DNA of 64,000 nucleotides. Source: Fastidiosipila sp. Its GTDB lineage: Bacteria; Bacillota; Clostridia; Saccharofermentanales; DTU023. The notes below the pieces were generated by a model. The model was not told where the DNA came from. It ran no database searches and saw only the letters and a program-made list of their open reading frames with translations. The position numbers and the translations under genes are program-made. This document shows positions 12,811-17,886 of this stretch, one piece after another (the first letter of the stretch is position 1; every line of letters begins with the position of its first letter). The stretch covers positions 1-64,000 of the forward strand of contig JAAZGO010000011.1 in assembly GCA_012511175.1 (NCBI GenBank). Direction: 5' to 3'.

Positions 12811-13078
12811 GAAAGGGTTGAGAATCCAAAGGGCTGTCTTTCATGGGGGATGGCGAACGCTTTGAGATTGAGCCGGATTAAAGCAAACCAGGTGAAAAGT
12901 CAGGGCTTCGTTGTTCGATTATCAAAAAGAAGATGTACTAAGAAAATGACATACGGTGAGCGTCGGCTTCCTTTAAGATACTTACTTTTATTTGACCTAT
13001 ACATCGAGTTGTGTGATTATACACTTTGGGAGTCGGGATTGATGTGAATCAACCACAGCCACTGAAAAGGAGATGCCG
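12811..13078. other. AT-rich spacer before the adhesin gene
   Basis: No supported gene. A 65-codon open frame (12850-13047) has no ribosome-binding site and looks random. A weak promoter may lie at TTGACC (12992-12997) with TTATAC (13017-13022), spacing 19, preceded by TG; it would serve the surface protein. Base composition is visibly more AT-rich than the flanking housekeeping genes. Confidence 0.35.
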
Positions 13079-14572
13079 ATGAAGAAGGGATTTGCAATTA
13101 TTCTGGCCGTTATGCTGGCCTTGGGGGTGGTCGCGCTCTGGCAGGGTTCTGCTGAAGAGATCTTTGCGGATCCGCAATTGATTGATCCTCAGGATCCGAA
13201 TGTTGATGGTAATATCAGGACCCATGGTACGGGAGGCTACCTGCTTATGGATCCTTTAGTAACGGAAACCGCGTATACGGCTACGAGTTTTCGATTCGAT
13301 CTCACTTATGAAGTTCCCGCTAGTGTGCAGGCGGGTGACTTCACCTTCATCGAGCTCTGTGGGCCTCTTTTGCAAGGTTATGGCGAGGCTGAAATTACAG
13401 ACGGCGCAACGACTCTCGCCCACCTTACCTTTGCCGACAAGCTCCTGACTGTCACTTATACGGACGCCTTCAGCAATGGCTACAAAGAGATCAGCTTTGA
13501 ATTTTTTGCTGACCTTGATTGGCAAAATGCCATTGACGGTGAAACCTATGACGTCGGATTAAAGTTTAATAACGAAGAACCGGAGATACTGGGCAGAATC
13601 CAGTACGAATATGCTTTGGAATTTGATGATGAGGCTCTCAACAAACATTTCCAAGGGCTGGTATCAGCTGATGCGTCCGGTGTTGTGATGGGTTACAGGA
13701 TTCGGATCAATGCCTCAGGATGTGAGCTCGGCGCTGTCTTGCTTGCGGATGAGATCAAAAAAGCGGGACCCTCTTACGTAAAAGACAGTGTGAAAATTTG
13801 GAAGGTGAAATTCACCTGGGATCCGGTTGAAAAAACCTACCAATTTGATGCCAACAAAAATTCCTGGATTGATGTTACAAATCAATTCCAGGCAGATATT
13901 ATATTCGCAGAGAGCACTGAAGGGCTGCCCGTATTTGGCATCTGGCTTGGCAACCTGGAGGAAACCGATCAATACATTATCGAATACAATCTCAGGGCGG
14001 ACTTCGCAGACAAAGTTTCGTTTGTAAACCAAGCAGAGCTCATGTCATTCGGCGAAATATTTCTCGGCCAAGTGACCTTGTTTAACGATTACATCAAGCC
14101 CGAAGGTGGTGAAAAAGAGTCCGCTGATTTCCGGATACACAAGGTGGATGAGAAAGGCTTGCCGCTGGAGGGCGCCAGCTTTATGTTGAGAAGTCTCGAT
14201 GACAGTCAAAGTGAGTTTGAGCCTTATGTAACGAATGAGAGTACTGATGAAAACGGTGAAATTCTATTTGAAGGTCTTGAAATAAGAGATTATGAGCTTA
14301 TCGAAACTTCTCCGCCCGAGGGTTACGAGTTGGATGACCAGGTCAATCGCTGGATTATCGAAGCAAAAGCCTTGAAGTCAGACGAAATCCTCGTCAAAAG
14401 AATTGTGAATAAGAAGAAAGCTGCGCCGCCTACGACCTCGGTTCAGGAAAAGGACGAGGAGTCGGTCCCCGCAACGGGCATCAAGACGCGCTTTGCCGTC
14501 GCGGGGGCCTTCTTCCTGTCACTGGCTGCCCTGCTGCTTGTATTCGGCCAAAGAAAAGTCGAAGAGAAATAA
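13079..14572 (+). CDS. Sortase-anchored Cna_B-domain surface protein
   Basis: A predicted cell-wall-attached adhesin of 497 residues. An N-terminal signal peptide (MKKGFAIILAVMLALGVVAL) is followed by about 300 residues of beta-rich adhesin-like sequence and then one Cna_B/SpaA-type domain (about 345-440). That domain has FRIHKVD (candidate isopeptide Lys), YELIETSPPEGY (catalytic Glu) and RIVNKK (candidate Asn). The C-terminus is a sorting signal: VPATG, hydrophobic helix, basic tail RKVEEK. AAAAGGAG at 13065-13072 abuts an ATG at 13073 but is six bases from ATG 13079, so 13079 is chosen. The gene is AT-richer than its neighbours. No sortase gene is in the window, and the ligand is unknown. 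Confidence 0.85.
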   Translation: MKKGFAIILAVMLALGVVALWQGSAEEIFADPQLIDPQDPNVDGNIRTHGTGGYLLMDPLVTETAYTATSFRFDLTYEVPASVQAGDFTFIELCGPLLQGYGEAEITDGATTLAHLTFADKLLTVTYTDAFSNGYKEISFEFFADLDWQNAIDGETYDVGLKFNNEEPEILGRIQYEYALEFDDEALNKHFQGLVSADASGVVMGYRIRINASGCELGAVLLADEIKKAGPSYVKDSVKIWKVKFTWDPVEKTYQFDANKNSWIDVTNQFQADIIFAESTEGLPVFGIWLGNLEETDQYIIEYNLRADFADKVSFVNQAELMSFGEIFLGQVTLFNDYIKPEGGEKESADFRIHKVDEKGLPLEGASFMLRSLDDSQSEFEPYVTNESTDENGEILFEGLEIRDYELIETSPPEGYELDDQVNRWIIEAKALKSDEILVKRIVNKKKAAPPTTSVQEKDEESVPATGIKTRFAVAGAFFLSLAALLLVFGQRKVEEK

Positions 14573-14820: not shown

Positions 14821-15345
14821 CTAGTCCTCGAGGTAGGGGATCTCATCGGGAACAAATTCGCGTGCGGCGTATTGCCTGTCCAGAGACAGGACGGCACCCG
14901 GATGATCACCGGCCCGCTTCCAGAACATGACGTTGTCGTTTCCGTTCACTTCCTCTTCAACCTGTTCAAGGATGTACCAGTCAAGGAAAAGCCTGGCGGC
15001 GCGATCGCCGTCCTCTTCAGCCGCGATGGCCATTTTATCGATGGAATCCGTGATGTATTCCTCATGCGCCAAAGCGGCTTCGAATACCTCAAGGGGGCTG
15101 TTCCACTGACCCTCGGGTGCCTCCATGGGCAGGAGCTCGACCGGTTCACCGCGCATCATCAGGTAGCGGATGAATCCCTCTGCGTGAACGACCTCCTCTT
15201 TGTACTGAACATACATCCAGTTGGCTGCCCCGGGCAGATCGTTCTGGTTGAGCCAGTTGCTCAAGGCCAGGTAGAGGTAAGCTGAAAAATACTCTTTGTT
15301 GATCTGTTCATTAAACAGTTTTCTTAATTTTCCGGTCATCTTCAT
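14821..15345 (-). CDS. ftnA: Ferritin
   Basis: Non-haem ferritin of 174 residues that oxidises Fe2+ and stores iron in a 24-subunit shell. The four-helix signature is present: NEQINKEYFSAYLYLAL (Glu18 as ligand), EEVVHAEGF (Glu51 and His54), an EQVEEE stretch near 127-132, and a final DRQYAAREF helix. I start at ATG 15345 (MKMTGKLRK), preceded by a weak AGTGAG; ATG 15366 and 15339 are alternatives. The gene is transcribed alone, away from the YhaN-like gene, from a promoter overlapped by a perfect inverted repeat. Confidence 0.93.
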   Translation of the reverse strand: MKMTGKLRKLFNEQINKEYFSAYLYLALSNWLNQNDLPGAANWMYVQYKEEVVHAEGFIRYLMMRGEPVELLPMEAPEGQWNSPLEVFEAALAHEEYITDSIDKMAIAAEEDGDRAARLFLDWYILEQVEEEVNGNDNVMFWKRAGDHPGAVLSLDRQYAAREFVPDEIPYLED

Positions 15346-15417
15346 CGTCGTTGTTCTCACTTTCATAAGATAGAGATGGTGGCTTGAACGGATGACAAGC
15401 CATCAAAAACTGATTTG

Positions 15418-15438: not shown

Positions 15439-15588
15439 GTCCCCCAGCGGCCGGTCACTGTTTCGCGTGTTACTGAGAATCGCAAGAATCCGGATTTTTG
15501 GCCTTGCATTTGGATCGGGCCCCGTGAATTCATGGTAAAGTAATGAGGCAGGTAAGAATGGGTGATTGGACGGGGGAGCGGGGCTACC

Positions 15589-17886
15589 ATGCAGATTACG
15601 GAGATCCGATGGGCTACCGGACACCCCGGCAAGGAAGGTCCGCGTTACCGTATGACGCTCAGGCCGGGAATCACCTTCATTCATTTCCGACCGTCCGAAC
15701 AATCCACCGCCCTGCTTTGCCGGCTCCAGTCAGACCTGACCCGCCCTCCGGACGATTTTCTGAATGATGACGGCAGCCCCGGGGATTACTGGCAATTTAT
15801 TTTTCACGAAAAAGATCTTTTCTATTCGTATTCCAGCGATCAATCGACCCGGGAAGCTGACCAGTTTTTCCGGCAGGCCATTGTAGGCTGCGAAGGTGAG
15901 GTGCTTGAGAGCCGGATCAATTATGCCGCCCTGTGCAATACAGAGGAATCACCGGAGGTTAAAAGGGAGCGGCTGGAACAATTGCTTTCGAGACTGGATG
16001 AGTCACGCAGCTATCTGTACGACCAGGCCGGGGGGCAGGGGAAATTGCTCTCTCTCCAGGCGGGTATCCGGAAGTGCAGCCAGGAGATCAGCCGGTTGAG
16101 AGACTGTGCAGAAACCGCCCCCAATCTGTCTGAAGCCCTCACAGAGGCGGAAAAGCGGCTGGCAGGTCTGAAAGCAGAAGATCAGAAACTGGCAGACGAA
16201 CAGCGGCGGATCAAGCATCTTATGACCCGGGCCGAATATGAGATCTACACCGGATTTCGGCGGGAACTGAAGGAAACTCTGGACAGAGAAGGGGTTTTTG
16301 GATCCCGCATCACTGAAAAAGGGCACAATATCACGGTGCACGAAATGACCTGCCTGACAGGTCTGCGAAAAGAGCTGGCCGACATTGAGGAGGAAGCCGG
16401 ATCCGTCGAGCGAAAACTCGGATCCGTGAAAGCAGACCGGATCAAAGCGGAGCAGGAGCGGATCATGACCGGGCGCCAGCTCCAGGGGCTTAACCGCGAG
16501 AGAGATCAGATCCTGGAGCAGGTAAGGCAGGCGGAAGCAGGTGATCGACAGAAGGTGATTTCCTCCGACAAAGGGGGCCATCTCTTTCCGACGAAGACCC
16601 AGCTTGCCTGGCTGGCCGCCTTGCTGCTCTTCACAGCCGGTCTTCTCCTAACGCTTTTTGCGCGAATCCCGGGCTTGGTTCTCAGCGGCCTGGGAGTTTT
16701 GTCCTTCGTTGCAACCGCCCTATGGACTTTCAGACGGAATCTCCTGACAGGCATCCGGTCACTTTCCGGAAACCGCCGCCAGGAGGAATTAAGTCAGTTG
16801 CGAAGCCAAGGCCATCAGCTTTCAGCCCGAATCGCCACAAGCACAATCAATCTGGATCGGCTGGAGAAACACATCCTGGAGCTTGACAGCAAAGAAAAAG
16901 GGCTGCTGGCTGACGCCGCCAGGATAGGAAGAAAGTACAGGCAGACAGAAAGTGAGCTGATGCGCCTGATCAGGCAATACGCGGGGCCCAGTGAAAGCAG
17001 TGAAGCGGATGAAATTATTACCGCCCTGTCGCGGCAGCGGGAATCGAGCGCCTATTACAGTGAAATGGTTGCCGATCTGCAAAGGAAGATGGCTGACCTC
17101 AGGCATGGCCGGTCCGAAGAAGAGATGGAAAGGGAGTACCAGCACGCCTGCAAAGAGCTTGGTGAAACGGAGGAAGGGGGGGACATGGCCGGCCTGAAAG
17201 ATCTGTCACTGGAGATTTCCAGACAACGGATTAAACTTGCCGCAGCCATTGAGGAAGGCCAGGAAACGCTTCGCGAAAGCAAAGAAAAACTGAAGACCTC
17301 GAGAGAATCGGTCCTTGCCCTGGGAGGGCTCGAACGCAAATGCCAGGCCTTGTCCGAATCATACCAGTCAACTGTCCACGATTACGTGTGCATCAGAGGG
17401 GCAATCGGCTGGCTGAAAGAAATACTCAGTCAATGGACGAAGATAGATGTCATGGCGTGGATGTCCTTGTCAGCGGGCTATCTCAATCGTTTGACCGGGA
17501 GGCGGCCGGAAGGTCAGCCCCTGTCGCTGCCCGGGGTGACCCCCCGCGAAAGAATTCGCCCGCCGAGATTCTCTCCTGCAAGATCAAAAGCGGATCAGGC
17601 CGGGGCGGCCGGCCTTTCTGCTTTTTCAACGGCACCCCAGTCCGCCCGCTATCTGGCAATCAGGCTGGCCTTGATTGCCGCCCAGATCAAGAGCGGATGG
17701 CCCGGGACACCGCTTTTGTTTTTTGACCCCGAGATCCCTGCCGGCCGCGCACAAAGAGAGAATATCCTCAGTACACTGGAAGAATGGTCCATGGAGACAG
17801 GTTTGCAAATCATTTATTTTAGTGATGACCAACAGCTGGTTTCGATCGCCAGGGCCAGGGAAATGACGATATACTATCCAGGGTGA
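15589..17886 (+). CDS. YhaN-like coiled-coil membrane protein with lost ATPase motifs
   Basis: A 765-residue protein with the layout of YhaN/SbcC-type AAA proteins: an N-terminal beta half-domain (ITEIRW...MTLRPGITFI), long coiled coils (about 125-330), two central membrane segments (about 340-385), more coiled coil (about 400-600) and a C-terminal half-domain (ARYLAIRLALIAAQI...PLLFFDPEIP...LQIIYFSDD). Where YhaN has the Walker A GPNEAGKST, this protein reads FRPSEQST. The signature region has no SxGT, and Walker B DDPF has become FDPEIP. ATP hydrolysis is therefore unlikely. GGGGGAG precedes ATG 15589; an upstream in-frame GTG at 15562 is possible. No SbcD-like partner is adjacent. Confidence 0.6.
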   Translation: MQITEIRWATGHPGKEGPRYRMTLRPGITFIHFRPSEQSTALLCRLQSDLTRPPDDFLNDDGSPGDYWQFIFHEKDLFYSYSSDQSTREADQFFRQAIVGCEGEVLESRINYAALCNTEESPEVKRERLEQLLSRLDESRSYLYDQAGGQGKLLSLQAGIRKCSQEISRLRDCAETAPNLSEALTEAEKRLAGLKAEDQKLADEQRRIKHLMTRAEYEIYTGFRRELKETLDREGVFGSRITEKGHNITVHEMTCLTGLRKELADIEEEAGSVERKLGSVKADRIKAEQERIMTGRQLQGLNRERDQILEQVRQAEAGDRQKVISSDKGGHLFPTKTQLAWLAALLLFTAGLLLTLFARIPGLVLSGLGVLSFVATALWTFRRNLLTGIRSLSGNRRQEELSQLRSQGHQLSARIATSTINLDRLEKHILELDSKEKGLLADAARIGRKYRQTESELMRLIRQYAGPSESSEADEIITALSRQRESSAYYSEMVADLQRKMADLRHGRSEEEMEREYQHACKELGETEEGGDMAGLKDLSLEISRQRIKLAAAIEEGQETLRESKEKLKTSRESVLALGGLERKCQALSESYQSTVHDYVCIRGAIGWLKEILSQWTKIDVMAWMSLSAGYLNRLTGRRPEGQPLSLPGVTPRERIRPPRFSPARSKADQAGAAGLSAFSTAPQSARYLAIRLALIAAQIKSGWPGTPLLFFDPEIPAGRAQRENILSTLEEWSMETGLQIIYFSDDQQLVSIARAREMTIYYPG

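Follow-up and report, generated by a model that had tools for sequence, protein, structure and literature searches.

A YhaN (SbcE) ortholog without nucleotide-binding motifs is maintained in a group of uncultured Clostridia

The window, meaning the whole stretch of 64,000 nucleotides from Fastidiosipila sp. that was analyzed, encodes an ortholog of YhaN (SbcE), a Rad50-like protein with a head in two halves, linked by a coiled coil that carries a membrane hairpin at its tip. The yhaO gene has been lost, as have all three nucleotide-binding motifs; the gene for this ortholog is under purifying selection and the membrane hairpin is kept. Our main reading, to which a probability of about two in three is assigned, is that the product is maintained as a pseudo-ATPase and forms a coiled-coil scaffold, tethered to the membrane, that would act without an ATP cycle and make its key contact through a conserved mid-arm. 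SMC and Rad50 proteins are thought to work by using ATP to open and close their heads. Here the ATPase has been lost, but the arms, the membrane anchor and the mid-arm joint are conserved, and the protein thus offers a natural experiment on the arms alone.

Reading frame and lost motifs

The gene occupies 15589..17886 on the + strand, from an ATG at 15589 to a TGA that ends at 17886, and the 765 intact codons claimed in the original prediction are borne out. Its GC3 resembles that of the adjacent genes, and the chance of so long an open frame at this base composition is about 2e-14. An alternative GTG start at 15562 would add nine codons; the orthologs begin at the ATG.

The order of parts first noticed in the sequence (half-head, coiled coil, membrane hairpin, coiled coil, half-head) agrees with hydropathy and with AlphaFold models of both the window protein and an intact YhaN. 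Residues 1-115 form the N-terminal half of the head (15589..15933, + strand) and residues 641-765 the C-terminal half (17509..17883, +). The membrane hairpin at the apex of the coiled coil (residues 335-385; 16591..16743, +) contains two hydrophobic helices at about residues 337-381, seen both in the hydropathy profile and in the model, and is present in intact YhaN too. No zinc hook CxxC was found at the apex; no Cys lies between residues 319 and 395, and the two hydrophobic helices are located there.

The loss of Walker A, signature and Walker B, also part of the original prediction, proved correct. At the Walker A site (residues 32-40; 15682..15708, +) HFRPSEQST is aligned to YGxNESGK[ST]T of the intact relatives. 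The signature site (FSTAPQSARYLAIRLA; 17623..17670, +) is aligned to YSxG[TL]xDQxxLALRLA, with FSTAPQS replacing YSxG[TL]xDQ, and the Walker B site (PLLFFDPEIP; 17710..17739, +) to PLILDDPF, with LLFFDPEIP replacing LILDDPF. In the alignment all three motifs are gone from the window protein and from 17 relatives, and both the Walker A Lys and the first Asp of Walker B are missing in 18 of 18 degenerate copies. Searches of Pfam and NCBIfam gave no model at its cut-off for the window protein; AAA_27 (PF13514) did not match it at E <= 5, against 37-38 bits for intact relatives (cut-off 22). It is very unlikely that the protein is a still-active YhaN ATPase with non-canonical residues. Motif loss judged by sequence is compatible with weak nucleotide binding, and an Asp-Pro remains near Walker B in some orthologs, but no conserved Lys, Ser/Thr or Asp is found at the three motif positions among the orthologs.

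Ancestry and predicted fold

The gene sits between secA-tkt-ferritin and a block that runs from kbl to hlyC and a P-type ATPase gene. In the sister genera g2, g4, g5 and g7, the corresponding interval is occupied by a metallophosphoesterase gene (PF00149) and, after it, YhaN; this metallophosphoesterase is related to SbcD, its NCBIfam match being below the cut-off. In the YhaN proteins of these four genera, all three ATP motifs are intact in 10 of 12 aligned sequences; the remaining two, both of g2, have Glu for the Gly that precedes the Walker A Lys. A profile of 15 window-type proteins was aligned with a profile of these 12 YhaN proteins by hhalign, and the two were co-linear over 729 columns (probability 99.9%, E 1.5e-33). 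Since part of this profile score comes from the coiled coil, the locus and the fold are important as separate lines of support.

The AlphaFold2 model of the window protein has a mean pLDDT of 78 and a pTM of 0.49. The order of strands and helices in its heads (strand-strand-helix in the N-terminal half, helix-strand-helix-strand in the C-terminal half) equals that of the intact YhaN model, and the sheet lobe is shorter. When the model was compared with the PDB by Foldseek, the best match was Rad50 (7zr1, E 3.9e-10), and all 22 matches under 0.001 were SMC/Rad50-like chains or a YydD model; TM-scores of the matches were low because of the long arms. Rad50 was also the best match of the intact YhaN used as a control. 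A PDB sequence search with the protein alone found nothing, and its profile gave weak, non-significant and mostly coiled-coil matches.

The common locus, the full-length profile match and the predicted fold support the earlier identification of the protein as YhaN-like, and the structural similarity to YhaN and Rad50 that could have been missing is present. That this is an unrelated coiled-coil membrane protein with nothing of YhaN beyond its layout is extremely improbable. Such a view would draw on the absence of any Pfam or NCBIfam family match and on an identity to intact YhaN of about 14% over the profile alignment; the yhaN locus, the co-linear profile match over the full length, the Rad50/SMC fold match and the intermediates in sister genera all speak against it.

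Distribution and stages of loss

The non-ATPase form was found in 12 of the 14 species of genus g1, to which the window belongs, the two without a match being 69-74% complete, and in all five sampled species of the sister genus g3, where one copy is split over two contigs. In none of these 17 genomes is the frame interrupted by an internal stop or a frameshift. An assembly error or a pseudogene was considered and rejected, the same form being open in all 17.

Among the sister genera the states are graded: both genes intact, nuclease motifs intact beside a dead ATPase, and a dead ATPase alone. A yhaO gene lies directly upstream of yhaN in g2, g4, g5, g6 and g7 and is absent in g1 and g3, where no yhaO remnant near the gene was detected by tblastn. 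In g6 (L042, L043, L044, L094), a yhaO with catalytic motifs adjoins a YhaN without any ATP motif; judged from these motifs, the g6 YhaO may be a nuclease that works without an ATPase partner. Genus g2 comprises four species with intact motifs, two with early Walker A changes (SEKTT, EIEKTI) and one, G059, without Walker A. In the two intermediate species (L062 and L064), Glu replaces the Gly in front of the Lys of Walker A, and one of them has NDPF for DDPF and the other an altered signature; these changes likely represent early stages of ATPase loss. In G059 (L095; 1950-3822), the catalytic GNHD of YhaO has changed to GNSD and its HGD to HAD, and the Walker A site of YhaN reads FNENKNNELL, so that both genes look dead; the contig ends inside YhaN.

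The separate loss in G059 implies that the ATPase was lost at least twice. The gene tree groups g1, g3 and g6 along long branches; the tree of neighboring genes places g6 with g5, and a clade of g1, g3 and g6 was not rejected (AU p 0.18). At one further locus (L040, G036:C6:31636-32825), in-frame stops appear to interrupt the yhaO frame close to its 5' end, and the downstream yhaN is intact.

Selection on the non-ATPase form

Pairwise dN/dS (Nei-Gojobori) was 0.10-0.21 for the dead form, 0.08-0.10 for intact YhaN of g2 and 0.02-0.06 for the neighboring kbl, values that are approximate because dS is high and near saturation in several pairs. In the dead form, dN/dS was below 0.35 in all five protein regions and in every pair. 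No relative with intact motifs was seen in g1 or g3. The dead YhaN is thus, as judged from substitution patterns, maintained, though it evolves faster than its neighbors.

A slowly decaying relic of yhaN, which lost its function together with the nuclease and whose frame is still undisrupted, is an improbable alternative that these data already largely refute. It would account for the loss of the nuclease gene, for a dN/dS somewhat above that of intact YhaN and for the fast change of the protein, which is 47% identical to that of the nearest species, compared with 86% for Kbl. Against such decay stand the 17 genomes without an internal stop or frameshift, the dN/dS range of the dead form, a loss older than the split of g1 and g3, and the strong conservation of the mid-arm block described below. 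The earlier suggestion that the protein is probably maintained is therefore upheld by the intact frames and by dN/dS values well below 1. The structural or regulatory role that was also proposed is a putative one. Related to a DNA-repair ATPase and anchored in the membrane, the protein has been kept intact in almost every species of a group of uncultured Clostridia, and its role is now probably structural or scaffolding.

Constraint in the mid-arm

The two half-heads contain 33 of the 35 invariant residues of intact-type YhaN (g2, g4, g5 and g7). The corresponding count for the dead form is 15 of 57; the difference between the two sets, head versus rest, gives a Fisher p of 5e-11, which serves as a guide, the two alignments differing in depth and their columns not being independent. 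Residues 194-256 and 464-526 hold 29 of the 57, these two stretches having been picked after seeing the data, unlike the head-versus-rest split. The N side of the mid-arm joint (16168..16356, + strand) ends in GSRIT..GH[DN]ITVHE[LM] and has 16 invariant positions out of 63 among 15 orthologs; the C side (16978..17166, +), YAGPSE ... HGRS[DE]EEMxREYxxAC, has 13 out of 63.

In the model, the arm helices are interrupted in both stretches, at roughly equal distances from the membrane hairpin, and these matching distances suggest that the two stretches probably lie opposite each other and form a joint. Intact YhaN of g5 and g2 has mid-arm sequence that is equivalent but less conserved, which indicates that the joint is inherited and did not arise anew. 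The idea that the GR[ST]DEE block is new in the dead lineage was dropped, as g2 has an equivalent block, LKGxYS...FYxAY, which suggests inheritance.

In the pseudo-ATPase that we favor, the heads would still fold and may pair, would neither bind nor hydrolyze ATP, and would serve as passive pairing or capping domains. The arms would form a rod tethered to the membrane, making the protein a fixed coiled-coil scaffold, and the mid-arm joint, rather than the head, would make the essential contact with itself or with a partner. The conserved mid-arm probably binds a partner; no partner gene was found to co-vary with the dead YhaN.

Relation to known systems

YhaN, or SbcE, is described as an SMC-like protein in break repair and competence (Krishnamurthy et al. 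2010, as cited in PMC3896406 and PMC4205851). The window protein shares with YhaN the split head and the coiled coil with a membrane hairpin seen in its intact relatives, and its gene holds the position orthologous to yhaN of the sister genera. It differs in having no Walker A, signature or Walker B and no yhaO partner, and in being constrained in the mid-arm instead of the heads. With Rad50 and SbcC, of which Rad50 is the best structural match, it has in common the predicted split ABC head fold; however, it has no ATP motifs and no adjacent Mre11/SbcD, and the membrane hairpin replaces the zinc hook. The archaea-specific SMC-related proteins (ASRPs; ClsN/Sph, PMC9389158) are also SMC-like and stand outside the SMC and Rad50 families. 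Walker A and B are present in these, and ClsN is described as having a zinc hook, whereas the window protein has neither and carries a membrane hairpin.

A recurrent evolutionary route might lead from the YhaO-YhaN DNA-repair ATPase-nuclease to a membrane-anchored coiled-coil scaffold that needs no ATP and interacts through a site in the mid-arm. This "pseudo-SMC" class is put forward here tentatively, at somewhat under even odds. No description of an ATPase-dead YhaN or of such a class was found in the searchable literature, a scope outside which most subscription papers fall.

Genomic context

The genes adjoining the window ORF are a ferritin-like gene upstream (14821..15366, - strand), which belongs by synteny to the conserved locus and matches NF007638 below its cut-off, and kbl (glycine C-acetyltransferase, TIGR01822; 17927..19114, + strand), which follows after a gap of 40 bp. 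No nuclease gene flanks the ORF, as originally stated, and the relatives show that such a partner was formerly present. In the measured loci of g1 and g3, kbl or tdh-kbl lies downstream in the same direction at 15-141 bp, and across its 40-bp gap the window yhaN is probably co-transcribed with kbl. Since an intact yhaO-yhaN precedes tdh-kbl in g5, this co-transcription predates the loss of the ATPase, and a metabolic link is thus not indicated.

The only match of the SbcD/YhaO type in the host genome is an SbcD beside SbcC on contig C35. This SbcD-SbcC pair (L096) is complete, its SbcC having GETGSGKT and a CPVCG zinc hook, which fits YhaO-YhaN as an extra pair whose repair role could be dropped. 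Searches of the host genome detected no YhaO and no second YhaN, and a second, intact YhaN supplying the ATPase was accordingly rejected. By analogy with the degenerate-site dimers known in ABC exporters (PMC7756269), the protein might be the degenerate half of a two-headed ATPase, pairing with and tuning an intact SbcC or SMC head. SbcC and SMC are both encoded in the same genome, and the head fold is kept in the model; this arrangement is nonetheless unlikely, every motif being lost, even the signature needed to complete the site of the partner, and the dead-form genera having SbcCD or a different long pair, so that they have no SbcC-type partner in common.

Nearly all genomes of the same family seem to have a single main pair of the Mre11/Rad50 type, which is SbcCD in some and a longer YhaO-YhaN-like pair (about 750-1090 aa) in others. 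SbcCD and the longer pair were not seen together in any genome, the short YhaO-YhaN being an addition to the main pair. Elsewhere in the window, at 13073-14572, lies a gene for a SpaA-type pilin-like surface protein with a VPATG sortase-like tail.
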